Positions 14,696-25,533 of a stretch of 64,000 nucleotides of DNA are shown one piece after another (positions within the stretch are counted from its first letter, which is position 1; every line of letters begins with the position of its first letter). Source of the stretch: Hysterangium stoloniferum (taxonomy: Eukaryota > Basidiomycota > Agaricomycetes > Hysterangiales > Hysterangiaceae); the NCBI GenBank assembly GCA_015178975.1, contig WHVD01000172.1, positions 102,986 through 166,985 on the forward strand, read 5' to 3'. The notes below the pieces were generated by a model. The model was not told the DNA's origin. It worked only from the letters and a program-made list of their open reading frames with translations, and did no database searches. Position numbers and translations under genes: made by a program.

Positions 14696-14700
14696 CTATG

Positions 14701-14861
14701 TGTTAGATTTAGTGACTCGGCACAGTAGCTACAAGTTGTGTACCATTGTGGGTCTGTAGTGTGTGCTGGTGAAATTTGCATTCACTCATTCGTGTCTGTG
14801 TCTGTGTCTGAGCTCTCACACTTCTTGTGTTACACATCCACCTCCCTTCTTCATTCTAACA
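14701..14861 (+). repeat. 5' LTR of Gag-only element 1
   Basis: TGTTAGATTTAG...ATTCTAACA, 161 bp, matching 25373-25533. Confidence 0.92.
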
Positions 14862-14967: not shown

Positions 14968-15410
14968 ATGTCTTTGCCCAACTTCCTCACTCCTATCATA
15001 GCCAAAGCTCCTCTCCTTACAGAAGACAATTATTCCAAATGGAGAGATGCAATGTCTATGGTCTTTTTAGGTGCTGGTGCTTTTTGGATTACAGATGATG
15101 ATGATACTGTTGCCCCCACATCCTCTACTGCTTCTGTGCAAACAGATAAGCAAATGGCAGCCATCATCTGGTCTACTATTAGTGATGAGTTGCAGTATTT
15201 GGTTATAGGGCAGACTTCAGGTTTAGCTGCTTGGAAAGCAGTGAGGGAACACTTCCAGAGGTCTACAATGGCTCATTGTTTCAAATTTCATGAGGATTTC
15301 TATCATATTGAGCATGATCCTTCTAAATCCATTGACATTTACATCCATGCTATTGAAAGTGCTTGTCAAAACCTCATATCCTTAGGTTGTGTTATCAATG
15401 ATTGTCAAAC
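14968..15410 (+). pseudogene. Copia-type Gag, N-terminal part
   Basis: The frame starts at ATG 14968 and encodes a Copia Gag: 'LTEDNYSKWRDAMSMVF' (about 15017), 'AAIIWSTISDEL' and the hydrophobic core around 'AWKAVREHFQ'. After 'NDCQ' the Ty3 element intervenes; the frame resumes at 24914 with 'TLDVLLMNLHPSY', the expected next block of the UBN2/Gag-polypeptide family. The protein would form virus-like particles for packaging element RNA. Confidence 0.85.
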
Positions 15411-16226
15411 TGTTACGACCGGAAATCCTGCTGGACTCTGGGCACCAACTTATATGCACCCATGCCCTATACACACCCATTATCAGTTCACCGGAATTCC
15501 CACCGGACTCCGTACGTCAGACTCGTCTATGTTCGTCTTTGTTATGTTGTGTTTCAGTCACTGGAATACTCACTGGACCCCATCTCTGTCTAATTCCGAC
15601 CTCGTCCAGCGCGTCAGTCACTGGACCCTGCTCAGAATACCTGTCATCCCTCTAACTGAGCCCCATTCCCATTTTAGTCAAATGACCTGTCACGATTCGG
15701 ACTCCACTCCCGCTCTGTTTCCCATTATGGTTTATGATTTGTCATTATTTGGACTCCGCTCCATTCCATCCCATTCCTAACACCAATTTGGTGTTTATTA
15801 TTCCCGTTTTATGTTTTGCTCACTTCGTTTCATTATTACTGGATTCAGTATGACATTTACCCCACAGTCTATTTAAACTGGCAGATGCTGTACATACAAT
15901 CCAGTCAGAAAATTAGCTTAGATTCCCCCCAGTAATCTAATCCATTTTCCACTCTAAAACCTTGCTTGATTCACATCGCTCTCACTAGTCGGAGCCCACG
16001 GGCTCCGGCATATCTATCTCTCTCACCAGTCTGAACTCACAACCCACGACCTCCAACTTACGACTCACAACCCACGACCCCCACCCAGACTCCCCAGGAT
16101 TCCCATCTGCCTGTCTGAAATTGGACAACACGATCTAGTGAGGGCACAGCCTATAAGCTGAAGCCAAGTCCTATTGGATATCCCGCGGGTTTCTCTGGAG
16201 ACCCACCCTGTGTGTGTATCCTAACA
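15411..16226 (+). repeat. 5' LTR (family 1) of Ty3 element C
   Basis: The LTR is 816 bp, TGTTACGACCGG to GTGTATCCTAACA. It matches 24104-24913 and, inverted, 10471-11268 and 23227-24041. It contains the shared block TAAGCTGAAGCCAAGTCC at 16154 and a TATTTAAAC TATA-like site near 15870. Confidence 0.93.
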
Positions 16227-16262
16227 GTATTTTCTGACTAACACTTGCAGATTGTTTTCATT

Positions 16263-17549
16263 ATGCCACCAAGAAGAAATACACGTGCACAGGCATCATT
16301 ACCTGGACCATCGACTCTTCATTCCCCGTTAACTTTGTATACCAGTCAGACACTTGCGAACCAGTCGGAAACCATGGAAGAAGTCCATATTGAAGAAGTC
16401 CTGGAAAATAAGGACAAATTTGAGCACGAGGACAAATCCGTGACCCCCGACAAGGGAAAAGGTGTTGAAAATCCTCTGCCTGTTCAACGACCGCACTTGG
16501 GGGATCCTACTTCTGAATTTTTGGCAGGTACTATAGATAAATTCATGACGCACCTGCTCGAACAACGAAAGAAAAGGGAACAAGAACCTCCACGGTCAAA
16601 AGTCAATGCTCCAGAACCCTTCATGGGTTCCAACCCAAACAAACTCTCTACTTTCCTCATGCAATGTTGCTTCAATTTCCGCGATCGATCCGCTGCATTC
16701 TCCACGGACTCCCGAAAAGTCAACTACACACTGTCATATTTGTCGGGATCTGTGTTGAAATGGTTCGAACTGGCTTTTAGCGGGATTTCTGAGGAAGAGC
16801 TGCTCTGGCTCGACAATTGGGAGGCTTTTGTTGAGGAGCTTGAAACTAACTTTGGCCCATATGACCCGACAAGAGAAGCCGAGAATAGTCTCACAAATCT
16901 TCGTATGAGGGACACGCAGTGCATCACGGACTATATCGTCCAATTCAATAATCTTGCAGCTCGTTGTCAGTGGGGCGATCCTGCTCTCCGCCACCAATTC
17001 TACACCAGTCTGCCATCCTGCCTTAAAGACGAAGTCTCAAAAGGAGAAGATGGCAAGCCAAAAACCCTGTCCCATATGCGCCTCAAAGCTCAAAATGTGG
17101 ACACACGCTATTGGGAACATCGTGCGGAAGTTGCCTGCGAGACCTCCGCAGACAAAGTAAACAAGTCCACAGCCAATAAAAACAACAACAATAATTCGTC
17201 AACCAGCAACCAGAACTCCACGCAATCAGACAAGAAGAACGATAAAAAGTCTTCAAACAACAACAACAACAACAATAATAACAACAAGGACAATAACAAG
17301 GGTCAACAATCCAGAAAGCAAGCCGGAAAACCCGACCTCTCAGGCAAACTCAGACCCGATGGCAAATTGACCCCACAGGAAAGACAATGTCATATGGACA
17401 ACAACCTCTGTCTCTTGTGCAGGAAACCCAGTCATCGAGTCCCAGAATGTCCGCTGGCAAAAGCAAACTCTTCAAAGGGTCAAACAGCCAAGGCCTCCAC
17501 GGAAACCCCGTCGAAGGACAAACCAGCTTCCGACTTGAAAAAAGAGTAA
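16263..17549 (+). CDS. Gag of Ty3 element C
   Basis: This 428-codon open frame begins at the ATG at 16263 ('MPPRRNTRAQ') 37 bp after the LTR and ends with TAA at 17547. The structural core lies at about residues 115-280, with 'FMGSNPNKLSTFLMQC' and 'AENSLTNLRMRDTQ', typical of Ty3 retrotransposon Gag (PF03732-like). An Asn-rich tract follows (about residues 300-360), then one CX2CX4HX4C zinc knuckle ('CLLCRKPSHRVPEC', about residue 380). It has no internal stop, which is exceptional among the elements here. The role is RNA packaging into particles. The pol frame is -1 relative to it and overlaps the end. Confidence 0.9.
   Translation: MPPRRNTRAQASLPGPSTLHSPLTLYTSQTLANQSETMEEVHIEEVLENKDKFEHEDKSVTPDKGKGVENPLPVQRPHLGDPTSEFLAGTIDKFMTHLLEQRKKREQEPPRSKVNAPEPFMGSNPNKLSTFLMQCCFNFRDRSAAFSTDSRKVNYTLSYLSGSVLKWFELAFSGISEEELLWLDNWEAFVEELETNFGPYDPTREAENSLTNLRMRDTQCITDYIVQFNNLAARCQWGDPALRHQFYTSLPSCLKDEVSKGEDGKPKTLSHMRLKAQNVDTRYWEHRAEVACETSADKVNKSTANKNNNNNSSTSNQNSTQSDKKNDKKSSNNNNNNNNNNKDNNKGQQSRKQAGKPDLSGKLRPDGKLTPQERQCHMDNNLCLLCRKPSHRVPECPLAKANSSKGQTAKASTETPSKDKPASDLKKE
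17533..17549 (+). promoter_or_regulatory. Putative -1 frameshift site at gag/pol junction
   Basis: A run of six A immediately precedes GAG TAA at the end of gag. Slipping back one base on this run moves ribosomes into the pol frame, which is open across the site. No stable downstream pseudoknot was worked out. A splice explanation (GTAAGC starts at 17545) was considered and is less supported because pol is open without it. Confidence 0.4.
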
Positions 17550-19801
17550 GCAACCCCGCAGACTCCGTGCGGGTTGGGGGTTGCATTGCCTCTCCGTACA
17601 TTCAAGAGTTTACCCATCTCAACGCATCCGCTTTTTTGCATTCTGATTCATTTTTCGTTAAACTTATGTCTAATATGATTCTGAAATTCATTTTTTCAGC
17701 TCTCATAGATTCAGGCTCAACTCATTGTTTTTTAGATACAAAATTCATGCAAAAAAATCCTTTGTCAACTTATTCGATAAATCCCATCGGCCTCCACCTC
17801 TTCGATGGCACAAGTAATTCGGTTGTTACCCAAGCTTGTGATTTACCCATCTGTTTCCCATGTGGAACATCTCAATTGGTCACTTTCTATGTGACCCAGT
17901 TAGACTCAAGTTGCTCGGTGGTCCTAGGACATAACTGGCTTACCCACTACAATCTGTTGATTGACTGGATAGCTAGCAGTATAACATTCCGGACTCCCAC
18001 GGGCAGCCGAGGAAACTGCGCCTGTCTCGGCCTCCATGGCACCCATGGTCTTCCCGGCACCTGCAGTCTCGAGGACTCCTGTGATCCCTACAGCACCCAT
18101 GGCTTCCCCAGAACCCATGGCACCTCTGTCTATTTCTCTGATTAATGCTGCAGCTTTTATTAGGGCTTCAAAAATGGACGGGTCCCAGGCATTCACTATC
18201 AACTTGAAAATTGATGAAGCAACTGGACATTTTTCAACCCTGGTATCCAAATCTGAGCAAGCTGCTGACCTAGAAGGTGTCCCAGAGAAATATCATGACT
18301 TCGCAGATGTTTTTAGCAAGCGGAAAGCTGACCGGCTCCCACCTCACAGAGAATACGACTTAAAAATTGATCTCGAAGACAGCACCCAGCCACCCCTAGG
18401 ACATATTTACCCACTCTCATCCATGGAATTTTCCACGATCTGCAATTTCCTGGATGAACATTTGTCCATAGGTTTTATCAGACCCTCAAAGTCTCCTTTT
18501 GGAGCACCTGTTCTGTTTGTCAGAAAAAAGGATGGATCCCTTCGACTATGTGTTGATTTTAGAGGACTCAATGCTGTCACCAAAAAGGATAAATATCCAC
18601 TCCCACTTATATCTGATCTGCTCGATGCTCTGCGGAATGCCCAGATTTACACCAAAATAGATCTCAAACACACCTATCATTTGGTCTGGATTGCCACGGG
18701 TGATGAATGGAAGACCACTTTTAAAACCCACTATGGAGCCTTCAAGTGGTTGGTGATGCCCTTCAGACTCACCAATGCTCTGTCTGTTTTTCAGCATTTT
18801 ATCAATGACATTTTCTCCAACATGCTCGATGTATGCATCATTGTTTACTTGGATGACATTCTTATCTCCTCCGAGAATCCCGCGGAACATGACAAACAAG
18901 TCCATGAAGTTCTCCGGAGACTCAGACAACATGGTTTATTCGCAAATGGTAAAAAATGTACTTTTGACACGGACTCCATGGAATACCTAGGTTTCATGAT
19001 GGGACCTGATGGACTCCAAATGGATGAAACTAAAGTGCAAGTCATCAAAGATTGGCCTGAACCCCGAAAAGTTAAAGATATACAATCCTTCCTTGGCTTT
19101 GCCAATTTTTACCAATGATTTATCCGTGGACATTCCGACATCACGGTACCCCTTACCCATCTTACGTGTAAGGGTACTCCATGGAACTTTAACGATAAGT
19201 GTCAAAAAGCTTTCAATCTTTTAAAAAATTCTTTTTCTTCAGCTCCTATTCTGTCGCATTGGAAACCAGACTTCCCACTCATTGTTGAAACGGATGCCTT
19301 GGATTATGCACTTGGAGCCATTCTGTCTATCCAGGACTCCGACAGAGAAGTCCACCCTGTGGCCTTTCTGTCCCGGACTTTTACCGGAGCAGAGCTCAAC
19401 TACGATGTTCATGATAAAGAACTCCTAGCAATCTTTTCAGCTTTCAAAGCATGGTGACACTATTTGGAAGGCTCAGGAACTCCTATTGATCTTGTAACAG
19501 ATCACAAAAACTTGGAATACTTTTCTACCACAAAACCTTTGACCCGTCGGCAGGCCTGCTGGTCTGAATATCTATTTGCTTTCAACATGATTATCCGTTT
19601 TCGACCCGGCCGTCTCAGCGGCAAACCCGATGCTTTAACTAGACGATGGGACATCTATCCTAAAGAGGGGAGCAACGACTATGCCATGGTAAATCCGCAC
19701 AACCTGAAATGTATTTTCACGAATAAACAACTTACTGCATCGGTCCACGCAACTTTCCTTGTCAATCCCATTGTCCGTGGAATTATCATTATGGAGGATA
19801 T
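17550..19801 (+). pseudogene. Ty3 element C pol: protease, reverse transcriptase, RNase H
   Basis: The protease has the catalytic 'ALIDSGSTHCF' (about 17700-17730) and a retroviral-type flap region. The frame changes once between 18036 and 18145 in a Pro/Met-rich linker. The reverse transcriptase (about 18400-19000) has '[10 protein letters not shown]', 'MPFRLTNA' and 'VYLDDILIS' (about 18843) with both catalytic Asp residues. RNase H follows (about 19260-19650, 'ETDALDYALGA', '[10 protein letters not shown]'). TGA at 19117 and 19456 replace expected Arg codons (CGA). The frame is cut near 19796 by the AT-rich insertion. Confidence 0.9.
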
Positions 19802-20467
19802 CTGAAAACTATTAAGTATACCAAATTCTAATATACTCTAAAGGTCATTTAAACATCTGGGATGTGATTCAAACATAATTTGGTTTTTAAAACTTTCAAA
19901 AAGTTTTAAACTCTCTCATACATTACAAACTAAAGAATCTTTCTGGACACGAGTAGACAATAAAAGAAATTAGTAGTTTGAAACACTAATACTTTTAAAA
20001 AGTAGATACCTTTAGATAGTCCATTCCATGCATATGTATATCATTGGCACCTCTAAATACATATGTATTACTTTGGAATGGATCTGTCAATCTGAACAGA
20101 TTTCTACTTGATTCAACATACCCAGAATATATAGGTAATTTCACTTAATAAAGAAGGCCATAGGATGAAAAATTTCCAATGACATCTCATATATTTTACT
20201 AGGAAATAACTACATTACAGCTTTTAAAAGACAAAGTACTAATAAAAGTATTAGTAGACATCTGTAAAAGGAAGGAAATTATATACAATAGAATTTGTTA
20301 AATAACTATGGGTTGTATAAGATGTAATATGGAGAACTATTTCTGATGGTTGTTTTTTGATGATATAATTGTTTCAGAATAGATATCACTATTTAAAGAT
20401 GGAGTTTTGTAAAAATAAGACTTTTATTAGTAAATATTTGAGATTATAGTAATTATAAACACCCTCC
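19796..20467. mobile_element. 672-bp AT-rich insertion in pol, unclassified
   Basis: It separates RNase H from integrase. A 6-bp duplication flanks it (TATGGA at 19790 and 20468; the overlapping GGATAT at 19796 and 20471 is an equally good reading, which would shift the ends by six). It has no open frame and no clear terminal inverted repeat. Inside is an imperfect hairpin (CCATTCCA...TGGAATGG, 20020-20083). Confidence 0.7.
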
Positions 20468-20468
20468 T

Positions 20469-21918
20469 ATGGATATTGAGAAGTTACATCAAGATATTCT
20501 ATCAGCAATTCCGCTAGACCCAATTACTAAAGCTTACCTTGACAATCCCATGGACCCCAGTCAACCCTGGTGGTCTCTTGATCAACATGGTTTCATTAGA
20601 CTTGACGATCGAATCTATGTACCGGACTCCAATGGCCTCCGCCTCAGGATCCTTCAATACAAACATGATCATCCACTCTCAGGACATTTCGGGTACAACA
20701 AAACTCTATCATTAATAATAAGAGAATACACTTGGCACAGACTCCGTGGATTCGTTAAGCACTATTGTAAATCTTGCACTTGTCCCCACTCGAAATCTCA
20801 GCGACACAAACCATATGGCCTTTTGAAACAACTCCCGGTACCGGAACACCCATGGAATTCTATCTCTATGGATTTCATTGAACACCTACCGGATTCCGAA
20901 GGCTTTTCTGCTATTCTAGTCATTGTTGACAGATTCTCAAAACAAGGTATATTCATCCCTACACATGACACAATTACGACCATGCAGTTAGCGGAACTTT
21001 TCATTATCCACATATTTTCCAAGCATGGAGTTCCATCCCACGTGACTTCTGATCGAGGATCAGAGTTCGTGTCTCACTTCTTTAGATCCCTCAGGAAATC
21101 CTTGGACATGACATTACATTTCACGTCCGGACACCACCCAGAAGGCGACGGACAAACCGAACACGTCAACCAGACATTGGAACAATACCTCCATGTATAT
21201 TGCAACTACCAACAGGACAATTGTAAATCCTTGTTACCACTTGCAGAGTTTGCTTACAACAATGCACCTTTGGCCACTACTGGTGTTTCCCCGTTCTTTG
21301 CAAATAAAGGATATAATCCAAATATTACAGTACATCCAGAATGAAATCTCACCTCTGCTCACACTCAAGAGTTCACCATGGACCTCCACAAGCTCCACGA
21401 GGAACTCCGGACTGCAATACTGTCTGCCCAAGAGCAGGACCAACATTCAGCGGACAAACACCAGATCCCGCCACCAAACTTCAAGATTGGCGATCGTGTT
21501 TTTGTCAAAGCTCAATTCTTCCGGACTACCCATCCATCAAAAAAGCTTGCTGAAAAATATTTAGGTCCGTTTGAAATTATCGCACAAGTAGGTTCAGTCT
21601 CCTGGACTCTATGGCTTCCAGATAGCATGTGCGTGGTACACCCGGTATTTAATGTTTCTATGTTAGAACCTTGTACTGCTAACACTATCCCGGATCGCGT
21701 GCAATCTCCAAGTTGAAATCTCACAGATTTTAGATTCAAAAATTGACAAGCATCGACACACTTGTAAACTGCTTTACTTGGTCAAGTGGGTGGGTTACGA
21801 GGGCACCAATGAAGAAACCTCATGGATTTTGGCCACGGAACTCGGTAATGCCACAGAAATCATTACTGACTTTCATACAGCTTACCCACTCAAACCTGGA
21901 CCACTATCGTCTCTCTGA
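20469..21918 (+). pseudogene. Ty3 element C pol: integrase and chromodomain
   Basis: Integrase zinc region (about 20680-20790; His pair 'HDHPLSGHFG', Cys pair 'CKSCTC') precedes the core with Asp in 'SMDFIEHLP' (about 20870), Asp in 'SDRGSEF' (about 21050) and Glu in 'GDGQTEHVNQ' (about 21160). A TGA at 21342 and a one-base shift near 21712 interrupt it. The chromodomain at 21716-21918 ('YLVKWVGYEGTNEETSW') would bind modified histone tails and steer integration, as known for chromoviruses. The stop is at 21916. Confidence 0.9.
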
Positions 21919-22112
21919 CTGCACTCCGCGGACCCCGTGTTACGTTTGGACTCATTTTCATTTTTCCCTGTCGCCCTATGTCTCTCTTTGCTTTTACAGG
22001 TTCTGACATGTTCTTAAGTCCTTAAGTGGTTTTCCCGTGGACTTTGACTTTTATGTTTTTTCACGCTTTACTTTTATGATTCAAATTATTCTTTTTATTC
22101 TATACTACTTTT

Positions 22113-23074
22113 TCAGTCTACATTTATGGGACTGTGTTTTTTCCCCGCTTCCTCAGCCATCTCCTCAGGGAGCTCTGTGACCTCCGTGGCAACCCCATCC
22201 TCATCTGACCCAGCATCCTTGGAACTCCCGACTTGTGGCTCTTCATACACATAACTGCCATACTCTGCCAGGAATCTCCAAAACTCCTCACGGAGTCCGC
22301 ACAGTTCCTTTCCCACCACTATGTGGACCTTGTTGCTCTTCCAGAGCAACTCGTTTTGGGCCTCGATGCCCTCGGCGATCTGTCCCAGGACTTTGTCCAA
22401 CCCGGAAAACCCGTCCAACCCGCTAATGTCTCACACCCCGGACCCCGCAGCCTGCTCGTGAATGACTGAGCACCTCGCCTTGAGGTGCGCACATTGGTAG
22501 CAGCCCGGACCCCGGCCGGACTTTCAGTTGCATTCCATGTTCTGGTCGTTACAACCGGAACACCGCAGATCATTCCACATTGGAAGGCAGACTGGCGCCG
22601 CCTTCCTTGCCTTCTGTTGATACGGTCAGTTCCACGGTTATCCCACAGACCTGAGGCTTACCTTTGGGGGGCTCTCTGGCTCCCCCTCAGACTTGGACTC
22701 CACCTCTGTCGCCTTGTGCTGAAAATGCCAAGTCAAAAAAAAAAACAACAAGTTGAAATATTGGGACTTACCTTTCCTGCGACAATCACAGCTCTGTCCA
22801 CAGCCACCTGCACTTTCTCCATGGCCACCTGTGCAACCTCCTCCTCATCTCTCTGCCTCTGCCTCTCAGCCTCCTCTGCGGCCAATGCCGCCTGGTACTC
22901 CATGTCTAAGGCCTCCTCGGCCTCCCTGGCTTCCTTTTCTGCCTCTTCGCAAAGTTGGCATTGCTCTTCTCACCGCACCAAGAGTTGGGCCGCACTCCAA
23001 GTCGCCTGATGTGCAGTACCCGTGGAAGGCCTGGTGGTTGGCATCACCTGTCTTGGCGTTGGCTTTGGTCCCAT
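22113..23074 (-). pseudogene. Antisense accessory gene of Ty3 element C: helical protein with Zn2Cys6-type motif
   Basis: The gene lies opposite in direction to gag-pol, between the chromodomain and the 3' LTR. The model has three exons: 23074-22772 (101 codons), 22718-22662 (19 codons) and 22613-22113 (166 codons plus stop), with introns of 53 bp (22771-22719, GTAAGT...TTTCAG) and 48 bp (22661-22614, GTAAGC...AACAG); all frames join exactly. The product would be 286 residues: a Pro/Thr-rich start, a charged Glu/Ala-rich helical segment (residues about 36-95), then CX2CX6CX9CX2CX6C (about residues 138-164), which fits the fungal Zn(II)2Cys6 cluster spacing, and an acidic C-terminus. Three TGA codons occur where CGA is likely (codon 35, between Cys3 and Cys4, and after the cluster), so this copy is inactivated. 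DNA binding is inference; I do not recognise a named family. Confidence 0.7.
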
Positions 23075-23120
23075 TTTGTCGATGATGGGGGTAATAAAGA
23101 AGAAGAATTTCTATTTTTTC

Positions 23121-23133
23121 CAATTTATATATA
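23121..23133 (-). promoter_or_regulatory. TATA box of the antisense gene
   Basis: On the minus strand TATATATAAATTG lies about 50-60 bp before the ATG at 23074, followed by an A/T and pyrimidine-rich leader. This supports independent transcription of the antisense gene. Confidence 0.5.
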
Positions 23134-23226
23134 GGCTCATCGCATTTGAACCTTACCTTCCAGATCACATGACTTCTTGACACATACGTGTAACTGACAT
23201 GACCTTTGACACATGCACGTAGCCGA

Positions 23227-24041
23227 TGTTAGGATACACACACAGGGTGGGTTTCTGGAGAAACCCGTGGGATATCTGGTAGGACTTGGCTTCAGCTTAT
23301 AGGCTGCGCCCTCGCTAGATCGTGTTGTCCAATTTTGAACAGGCAGACAGGGATCCCGGGGAGTCCGGGCGGGGGTCATGGGTTGTAGGTCGTAGGTCGG
23401 AGGTCGTGGGTCGTGAGTCGAGATGGTTGAGATAGATGCACTGGAGCCCGTGGGCTCTGACTAGTGAGAGTGATGTGAATCAAGCAAGGTTTTAGAGCGG
23501 AAAATGTTATTAGATTACTGGGGGGAATCTAAGCTAATTTTCTGACTGGATTGTATGTACAACATCTCCAGTTTATATAGACCATGGAGTGAATGACATA
23601 CCAAATCCAGTAATGATGAAACAAAACTAACAAAACATAAAACGGGAATAGTAAACACCAAGTTTGGTGTTAGGAATGGGACGGAATGGAGCGGAGTCTG
23701 AATCGTGACAAAGCATAACCCATAACAGGAAATGGAGCGGGAGCGGAGTCCTAAATCGTGACAGGTCATTTGACTAAAATGGGAACAGGGCTCGATTAGA
23801 GCAGTGACAGGATTCTGAGTGGGGTCCAGTGACTGATGCGTGGGATGAAGATGGACATAGACAGAGACAGAGTCTGGGGGAAGTCCGGTGACTGATATGT
23901 GTCATAATGAGGTCAAACGTAATGAGTCTTGATGTAACGGAGTCCGGGCAGGAAATCCTATAAACAGATAATTGGTGCTTGTAGCGTGTGGGGGTGTACA
24001 GGTTAGTGCCCAGAGTCCAGCGGGATTGTCCAGTCGTAACA
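23227..24041 (-). repeat. Solo LTR, family 1, inverted, within Ty3 element C
   Basis: The LTR is 815 bp, TGTTAGGATACAC to CAGTCGTAACA, flanked by GCCGA (23222-23226) and GCCAA (24042-24046), a duplication with one G-to-A change at a CpG. It is the same family as the host element but inverted, and inserted 62 bp before the host's 3' LTR. Confidence 0.88.
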
Positions 24042-24090
24042 GCCAACAAGAACCTTATCGAGGTCTAGAGCCTCTTTTGGACTTCGGCAT

Positions 24091-24103
24091 AAAGGGAGGG
24101 TAC
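24091..24103 (+). other. Polypurine tract of Ty3 element C
   Basis: AAAGGGAGGGTAC directly before the 3' LTR start. Confidence 0.75.
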
Positions 24104-24913
24104 TGTTACGACCAGAAATCCCACTCCGGGCACCAACTTATATGCACCCACACCCTATACGCACCCATTATCAGTTCACCGGAATTCCCACTGCACTCCG
24201 TACATCAGACTCGTCTACATTCGTCTTTGTTACATTGTGTTTCAGTCACCGGAATACTCACCAGACCCCATCTCTGTCTAATTCCAATCTCGTCCCATGC
24301 ATCAGTCACCGGACCCCACTCAGAATACCTGTCATCCCTCTAACTGAGCCCCGTTCCCGTTTTAGTCAAATGACCTGTCATGATTTGGACTCCGCTCCCA
24401 CTCCGTTTCCCGTTATGGTTTATGATTTGTCACTATTTGGACTCCACTCCATTCCATCCCATTCCTAACACCAATTTGGTGTTTATTATTCCCGTTTTAT
24501 GTTTTGCTCGTTCATTTCATTATTACTGGATTCGGTATGACATTTACCCCACGGTCTATTTAAACTGGCAGATGTTGTACATACAATCCAGTCAGAAAAT
24601 TAGCTTAGATTCCCCTCAGTAATCTAATACATTTTCCACTCTAAAACCTTGCTTGATTCACATCGCTCTCACTAGTCGGAGCCCATGGGCTCCGGCGTAT
24701 CTATCTCTCTCACCAGTCTCAACTCACGACCCACAACCTCCGACTTACACCTCACGACCCACGACCCCTGCCCGGACTCCCCAGGATTCCTGTCTGCATG
24801 TCTGAAATTGGACAACACGATCTAGCGAGGGTGCAACCTATAAGCTGAAGCCAAGTCCTACCGGATATCCTGCGGGTTTCTCCAGAGACCCGCCCTGTGT
24901 GTGTATCCTAACA
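24104..24913 (+). repeat. 3' LTR (family 1) of Ty3 element C
   Basis: The LTR is 810 bp, same ends as the 5' LTR. The differences from 15411-16226 are concentrated at CpG/TpG/CpA. Confidence 0.92.
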
Positions 24914-25348: not shown

Positions 25349-25372
25349 GATATGTGTCTCATCAGGTGGGAG

Positions 25373-25533
25373 TGTTAGATTTAGTGACTCGGCACAGTAG
25401 CTACAAGTTGTGTACCATTGTGGGTCTGTAGTGTGTGCTGGTGAAATTTTCATTCACTCATTCATGTCTGTGTCTGTGTCTGAGCTCTCATACATCTTGC
25501 GTTTCACATCCACCTCCCTTCTTCATTCTAACA
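25373..25533 (+). repeat. 3' LTR of Gag-only element 1
   Basis: 161 bp, preceded by the purine tract CAGGTGGGAG; flanked on the right by CTATG. Confidence 0.92.

Follow-up and report, generated by a model that had tools for sequence, protein, structure and literature searches.

Genes that run antisense to gag and pol are already known from LTR elements of plants, from the Boty elements of ascomycetes and from retroviruses. In plants, antisense reading frames placed between pol and the 3′ LTR (aORF-3R) have been described in Grande (gene23), RIRE2, Retand (TRP28) and PvRetro13, where they are reported from most copies and as conserved to a degree like that of the other element proteins (PMC7264820, PMC11963269). 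Grande gene23 is described with an upstream promoter, its product GENE23 as nuclear, and TRP28 as a predicted DNA-binding protein (PMC7264820, PMC11963269). TRP28 antisense ORFs are given for 97% of the recently active Retand clusters, and a regulatory role has been suggested for TRP28 by comparison with retroviral antisense genes (PMC11963269). Among fungi, the gene brtn is described as lying antisense between pol and the 3′ LTR of the Boty-like element (BcGypsy1) of Botrytis cinerea (PMC7264820, PMC8365987), and the pol of Boty-like elements as carrying a chromodomain (PMC4227169); with brtn on record, a fungal element that carries an antisense gene is by itself nothing new. Among retroviruses, the HBZ protein of HTLV-1 is described as nuclear (PMC11963269) and the antisense promoter of HTLV as lying within the 3′ LTR (PMC7264820). 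The function of retrotransposon antisense genes is called unknown in this literature (PMC7264820, PMC11963269), and the need to look for antisense and spliced transcripts has been stated (PMC7264820).

The stretch of DNA analysed here, 64,000 nucleotides long and called the window throughout, holds a Ty3 element with a gene of this kind. Its source, Hysterangium stoloniferum, is an ectomycorrhizal false truffle. The parts of the element and of its antisense gene lie as follows within the window:

15411..16226, + strand: 5′ LTR (TG..CA), with the left target-site duplicate CAAAC at 15406-15410
16245..17549, + strand: gag ORF (Retrotrans_gag, E 6.1e-10)
18036..19118, + strand: pol reverse transcriptase ORF (RVT_1, E 2.1e-31)
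20469..21716, + strand: pol integrase (20469-21344) and SH3_Tf2-1 (21378-21716), in two ORFs (Integrase_H2C2, rve, SH3_Tf2-1, E 3.8e-20)
21742..21915, + strand: pol chromodomain (PF00385, E 6e-5; score 23.3 bits, cut-off 25.1)
22113..22613, − strand: antisense exon 3, 501 nt, with a basic stretch, six-cysteine cluster, probably helical part and acidic tail
22614..22661, − strand: intron 2, GT..AG
22662..22718, − strand: antisense exon 2, 57 nt
22719..22771, − strand: intron 1, GT..AG
22772..23074, − strand: antisense exon 1, 303 nt, with the start codon, rich in E, A and R
23075..23226, − strand: antisense promoter region, with TATATATAAA at 23133-23124 and then a pyrimidine-rich stretch
23227..24041, − strand: reversed solo LTR between the antisense promoter region and the polypurine tract (PPT) stretch, 83-84% identical to the element's own LTRs
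24042..24103, + strand: stretch before the 3′ LTR, with the PPT
24104..24913, + strand: 3′ LTR

The element is a chromovirus in its make-up, with gag, reverse transcriptase, integrase, chromodomain and two LTRs, and with a 5-bp duplication of the target, CAAAC being found again directly 3′ of the 3′ LTR. Two other copies have target duplications of their own (AAAAG in L046, CATGG in L045), and L043 has none. The pol of the window copy is split into several frames, and its chromodomain lies outside the ORF ending at 21716; the chromodomain of L043 (PF00385) reaches 30.3 bits, above the cut-off of 25.1. The LTRs of the window copy are identical at 744 of 811 aligned bases, a divergence by which this copy is old, and 61 of the 67 differences between them are transitions, an excess that would fit cytosine deamination in silenced repeats.

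Some further observations concern the element and its surroundings. Two bases past the 5′ LTR (window 16227-16260), ATTTTCTGACT complements AGTCAGAAAAT within the LTR at 15411-16226, where the latter stands about 30-40 nt downstream of a TATATAA; we take this complementarity to resemble self-priming of reverse transcription of the Tf1 type. About 670 bp of the window's pol (19796-20467) are absent from L043, L046 and L041, and this segment occurs elsewhere at 95-99% identity (L048, L070), as a separate short repeat with a duplication of about 6 bp. A 96% direct repeat (14700-14861 and 25372-25533) flanks the entire Ty3 element, and an ORF at 14968 is presumably copia-type and gag-like; possibly the Ty3 element inserted into a different element.

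A reading of the window from its letters (the sequence-only reading) had placed the gene between the chromodomain and the 3′ LTR, and that order is correct, but a full reversed LTR (23227-24041) intervenes and had been overlooked. It is a complete LTR of the same family, flanked by GCCGA and GCCAA. Where both flanks are present in other fetched copies, promoter region and PPT stretch are as a rule directly adjacent, and we therefore regard the reversed LTR as a later solo-LTR insertion. It has the same orientation as the antisense gene. A candidate explanation in which the gene is part of a separate nested element represented by this LTR was rejected, since the gene is kept in copies that have no such LTR.

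The gene itself had been modelled on the minus strand as three exons of 303, 57 and 501 nt, with a TATA box upstream and cysteines spaced CX2CX6CX9CX2CX6C. Both introns are present with GT..AG ends at the coordinates listed above, the TATA box lies at 23133-23124, about 60 nt 5′ of the ATG, and the cysteine spacing is as described. What did not survive is the exact closing of the frames, since codons 35, 150 and 181 of the window copy read TGA (22972-22970 in exon 1; 22526-22524 and 22433-22431 in exon 3), codon 150 being within the cysteine cluster. With three such codons the window copy cannot make the protein, and its gene is dead.

Copies were sought in the 111-Mb assembly of the host, that is, in one genome. 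A pattern made from the gene's 3′ end (its last codons, with up to 3 mismatches) matches 591 places, whereas its reversed control matches 0, so that a single capture of a host fragment, which the sequence-only reading had named among the outcomes that would speak against it, is not what the genome shows. A search with the gene's DNA scored 40 places. The best 30 were fetched, and of these 29 have the pol end to one side of the gene and 29 have the PPT stretch to the opposite side. A second, more distant set (L047-L070) has the same order wherever flanks are present, and every one of the 60 oriented loci (58 distinct places, the window's own included) holds at least one Ty3-internal anchor. Approached from the pol end, the gene stands on the opposite strand at at least 29 of the best 40 of 1,591 candidates, the window included, and in those 29 places it lies 397-456 bp beyond the pol match (by coordinates). 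The expectation that the gene belongs to the Ty3 family was thus borne out, a related gene being seen in sister copies, and like the plant aORF-3R it is antisense to gag-pol and lies between pol and the 3′ LTR.

For the comparisons that follow, an alignment of 46 rows was drawn from the 60 oriented loci by leaving out 12 that had no pol or PPT anchor or had large insertions (among them L001, the window's own place) and three that were repeats or near-copies (L051, L046, L021), and by adding the window's row; loci L031-L040, matched by exon pieces and including four places already represented, were excluded from all comparisons. In nine of the 46 copies all three exons lack stops and frameshifts, and three of these nine (L041-L043) are near-identical. 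The LTRs of L043 are 97.9% identical, so that gene-bearing members of the family were still active at a more recent time.

Three observations on the distribution of copies may be recorded here. Exon 3 matches 19 places with the same E-value of 9.2e-96, several of them less than 2 kb from a contig end (for example C16:973, C33:540, C103:971 and C545:844), and these equal-scoring copies probably stem from a recent burst, at which the assembly breaks. On C1 an inverted pair of genes with equal scores lies about 380 bp apart (4436345-4436755 on the + strand, 4437136-4437546 on the − strand). At L024:1003-1218 a tandem array with a 17-bp period is found in the LTR next to the antisense promoter region.

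The pattern of substitution among the copies points to a protein. Mean dN/dS over the 29 copies of the first set is 0.227; it is 0.23-0.28 within the two gene lineages described below and, between them, 0.26 (exon 3) and 0.19 (exon 1), compared with 0.21 for the integrase part of pol and 0.37-0.41 for its SH3_Tf2-1 part. The gene is richer in CpG than pol (9.2% versus 5.7% in L043), so that its dS is inflated. Variants common to three or more copies fall on first, second and third codon positions 76, 72 and 158 times, summed over the exons, and the six cysteines are kept in 273 of 276 cells over the 46 copies. Read in the frame of the gene, exon 3 averages 0.42 stops per copy, versus 2.9-9.2 in the other five frames (36 of 46 copies), and exon 1 has 0.81 versus 0.38-2.43 and does not stand out (37 of 46 copies), rows with frameshifts having been left out of these counts and of dN/dS. 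The dN/dS values among copies, which the sequence-only reading had proposed as a check, thus come to 0.19-0.28, which is to say purifying selection; as judged from these substitutions, the gene is under purifying selection comparable to that on the integrase. Its presence in most copies (at least 29 of 40 pol ends), together with a dN/dS like that of the integrase, is a further property shared with the plant aORF-3R. Positive selection on the protein overall was considered, because no other part compared differs as much, and was rejected on average, dN/dS between lineages being 0.19-0.26.

It is worth considering in this light whether the frame is an element gene at all, as opposed to a host fragment caught once or a chance frame opposite a coding region. 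The three stops of the window copy could be cited for such an origin, as could the fact that only two partial hypothetical host proteins were matched; against it are the hundreds of gene ends, the same place in the loci examined, the conserved splice signals and cysteines, and the stop counts of exon 3, 2.9-9.2 per copy in the frames other than that of the gene. We find it hardly credible, host-gene capture and a chance ORF alike being rejected on the comparison of copies. The sequence evidence shows the gene to be an established component of the Ty3 family that codes for protein, and not a host fragment caught once.

The signals for splicing are conserved as well. Intron 1 has GT-AG ends in 45 of the 46 aligned copies and GC-AG ends in one, and intron 2 has GT-AG ends in 46 of 46; the 5′ site of intron 1 reads GTAAGT in 42 of 46, and all 3′ sites read YAG. 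A branch-like YTRAY site lies 8-35 nt 5′ of the 3′ splice site in 46 of 46 copies for intron 1 and in 45 of 46 for intron 2. Net changes in length relative to the window are divisible by three in 51 of 74 cases in the exons and in 16 of 68 in the introns, the copies being non-independent. By every sequence criterion tested, the gene looks spliced.

Upstream of the gene, TATAWA is present in 44 of 46 copies and, in 37 of those 44, stands 59-60 nt before the ATG, the TATA box named in the sequence-only reading being conserved across copies. The motif can be read on the sense strand too in 42 of 46 copies, and the strand is therefore not told from the motif alone; we regard the region as a candidate TATA-type promoter region belonging to the gene. 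A conserved promoter region and conserved splice signals would be compatible with a role for the antisense RNA alone, acting as double-stranded RNA with the genome or through transcription interference, with the reading frame incidental, and a role of this sort has been raised for other antisense transcripts (PMC7264820). Purifying selection, exon changes that preserve the frame and near-invariant cysteines all speak against it, and we consider it very improbable.

The predicted protein has about 290 residues, comprising an N-terminal coiled-coil-like part, the basic stretch KKARK, the cysteine cluster, a helical part and an acidic tail; the coiled coil, basic stretch, helical part and acidic tail were assigned by eye, and by this judgement the product of exon 1 is probably a coiled coil. 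The family pattern of the fungal Zn2Cys6 factors is CX2CX6CX5-12CX2CX6-8C, and typical members have basic residues between the second and third cysteines. The six cysteines of the antisense protein fit this pattern, and the spacing on which the sequence-only reading had based its identification does match, yet the Pfam match stays under threshold: 7 of 8 exon-3 translations match Zn_clus (PF00172), all below the cut-off and the best at E 0.16, the exon of L046 scoring 10.9 bits versus a cut-off of 21, and one full-length translation gave no Zn_clus match at E 1. The gene is thus like the Zn2Cys6 factors in a spacing within the family range and in a weak match, and differs from them in lying below the curated cut-off, in the scarcity of basic residues between cysteines two and three, and in being encoded by a retrotransposon.

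Sequence searches of the PDB gave weak matches only, none of them to a zinc cluster (the best at E 0.045, to a talin-1 helix in the helical part, and at E 0.32), and the predicted fold of exon 3 alone was uninformative (pLDDT 41). Protein searches, which reach relatives that share exact 5-residue words, gave two hypothetical Hysterangium proteins, both partial, and nothing else among the candidates scored; in one search these were the 7,999 that shared most. The two public protein models carry the gene incompletely and mis-joined. Taking its predicted features together, the product is probably a nuclear regulator, putatively DNA-binding.

Comparison of the copies also reveals at least two divergent lineages of the antisense gene, A (the window type) and B. 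L043 (A) and L066 (B) are 76.3% identical in the gene, but 94.1% at the pol end and 94.7% both in the region that follows and in the promoter region. Over the 46 copies, Fst between A and B is 0.15-0.51 within 22073-23112 and −0.01 to 0.09 outside it (blocks of the pol end, chromodomain, intergenic part, promoter and PPT), the maximum of 0.09 coming from a block that touches the gene's strip; since the labels were set from exon 3, Fst in that exon is partly by construction, and exon 1 and the flanks are the fair test. The stretch 21717-22112 combines the chromodomain (about 21717-21918) with an intergenic part. In 48 LTRs, for which eight further loci were put into lineages by hand, Fst is −0.05 to 0.07. 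Similarly, dS between A and B is 0.84 in exon 3 versus 0.19 in the integrase, where it is 0.19 for A-A and 0.20 for B-B. CpG content can raise the substitution rate of the gene but cannot explain an A/B split that is absent from the flanks. The A/B comparison covered the gene, the 3′ part of pol, the promoter region, the PPT and the LTR.

The A/B label changes once on the gene tree, against 7, 8 and 11 times on trees of the short flanks. A pol tree of the 34 of 46 copies with enough pol has the shape of a star, good support being limited to 3 of its 31 inner branches. On it there are 8 changes, much as for shuffled labels (mean 9.3-9.5), 92-94 of 500 shuffles giving a number as low as that observed; B as one clade on this tree is weakly rejected (p 0.032). 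Raw pol distances tell against a swap (A-A 0.084, A-B 0.127, B-B 0.167); we tentatively ascribe their rise to cut or misaligned pol in the B rows, on the ground that dS is flat on the blast-aligned integrase. In the intergenic strip adjoining the gene, the A-B distance is slightly higher, 0.165 versus 0.141 and 0.146. From these comparisons, gene cassettes appear to have been exchanged among backbones or, equivalently, the backbone appears to have been homogenised around old gene lineages.

Within the gene, near-fixed A/B differences are densest at 22233-22312 (13 of 80 positions, C-terminal) and 22953-23032 (10 of 80, N-terminal). The blocks of the cysteine cluster have 1 of 80 and 3 of 80, with Fst of 0.23-0.25, and some other blocks are equally low. 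No cis sequence that co-varies with lineage was found by Fst in the pol end, promoter region, PPT or LTR. Because the cluster is among the less differentiated parts and no tested flank co-varies with lineage, the variable parts may face host proteins; we lean toward a variable protein partner, more likely one of the host's, over a variable DNA target.

Considering these observations as a whole, the best explanation, to which we would give a probability of about one half, is a resident antisense gene that encodes a nuclear DNA-binding regulator acting in trans, with variable parts that face the host. Under this explanation, a three-exon gene between pol and the PPT would be transcribed on the opposite strand from its own TATA-type promoter region. 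The protein would enter the nucleus, bind DNA through its cluster, probably as a dimer, and act in trans on the expression of element copies. Its variable parts would be directed at proteins of the host, such as chromatin or silencing factors, which it would recruit or displace and so keep element copies transcribable. Cassettes would be swapped, probably by template switching between co-packaged genomes, and the introns would persist, as the sequence-only reading soundly argued, because the RNA that is reverse-transcribed is the opposite strand.

A more specific proposal, which we offer tentatively, is that the gene is an interchangeable specificity cassette, a spliced zinc-cluster protein whose lineages are held under balancing selection and moved by recombination while the backbone stays uniform. 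Each lineage would then meet or escape a different factor of the host or of a rival element. If this is true, the cassette would be the counterpart in a fungal retroelement of a viral counter-silencing gene.

It is also possible, if rather doubtful, that the element restrains itself, with the antisense protein repressing sense transcription or transposition in trans and so limiting damage to the host. There are precedents for restraint in HBZ of HTLV-1 and in the truncated Gag of Ty1 copy-number control, and HBZ has the same place and strand as the fungal gene. A putative separate promoter region, a possible DNA-binding motif and a helical part would all suit a repressor, and restraint would be useful at a copy number as high as 591 gene ends suggests. 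Repression specific to a lineage, however, should be accompanied by a cis target that co-varies with it, and Fst in the LTR, promoter, PPT and pol end is at most 0.09; one common target might instead be bound by the conserved cluster.

We consider it unlikely that the protein acts after transcription, by binding cDNA or integrase and aiding nuclear import or the choice of integration site. The basic stretch and the possible DNA-binding cluster could serve such a purpose, and a role like that of retroviral accessory proteins has been suggested for plant antisense proteins, nuclear import being among the points discussed (PMC7264820). On the other hand, a promoter region of its own would separate the supply of the protein from the Gag-Pol genomic RNA, and the pol chromodomain is already a candidate targeting part.

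In a single genome this family provides hundreds of copies of the gene, with open frames in 9 of 46, and a defined candidate core promoter region; the two introns would give unambiguous strand-specific RNA markers, and there are two natural protein lineages on one backbone. The role of antisense element genes thereby becomes directly testable. Among the top open-PMC literature matches, none describes a basidiomycete element whose antisense gene is spliced and has a zinc-cluster motif, and in the same literature we found no antisense element gene that combines two introns, a zinc-cluster-like motif and swapped lineages.

Set beside the known systems, the fungal gene resembles HBZ in being antisense near the 3′ LTR, an analogy of place and strand only, with no homology claimed. 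HBZ has a spliced form and a leucine zipper and is a nuclear bZIP-type factor that modulates the sense promoter. In the fungal gene, the TATA region is inside the element and not in an LTR, and the motif is zinc-cluster-like and not bZIP. With brtn it shares place and strand within a fungal Ty3/gypsy element whose pol has a chromodomain, and the hosts differ, an ascomycete for brtn and a basidiomycete here. The plant aORF-3R genes are matched by the fungal gene in place, strand, presence in most copies and conservation, whereas it resides in a chromodomain Ty3 element of a basidiomycete and carries a six-cysteine motif instead of TRP28 or SMC. It also has two introns, and the word “intron” does not occur in the main text of the two plant reports (PMC7264820, PMC11963269). 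Finally, unlike the plant genes, it comes as divergent versions that appear to have been exchanged among backbones, an indication that a regulatory gene can pass between elements as a cassette.
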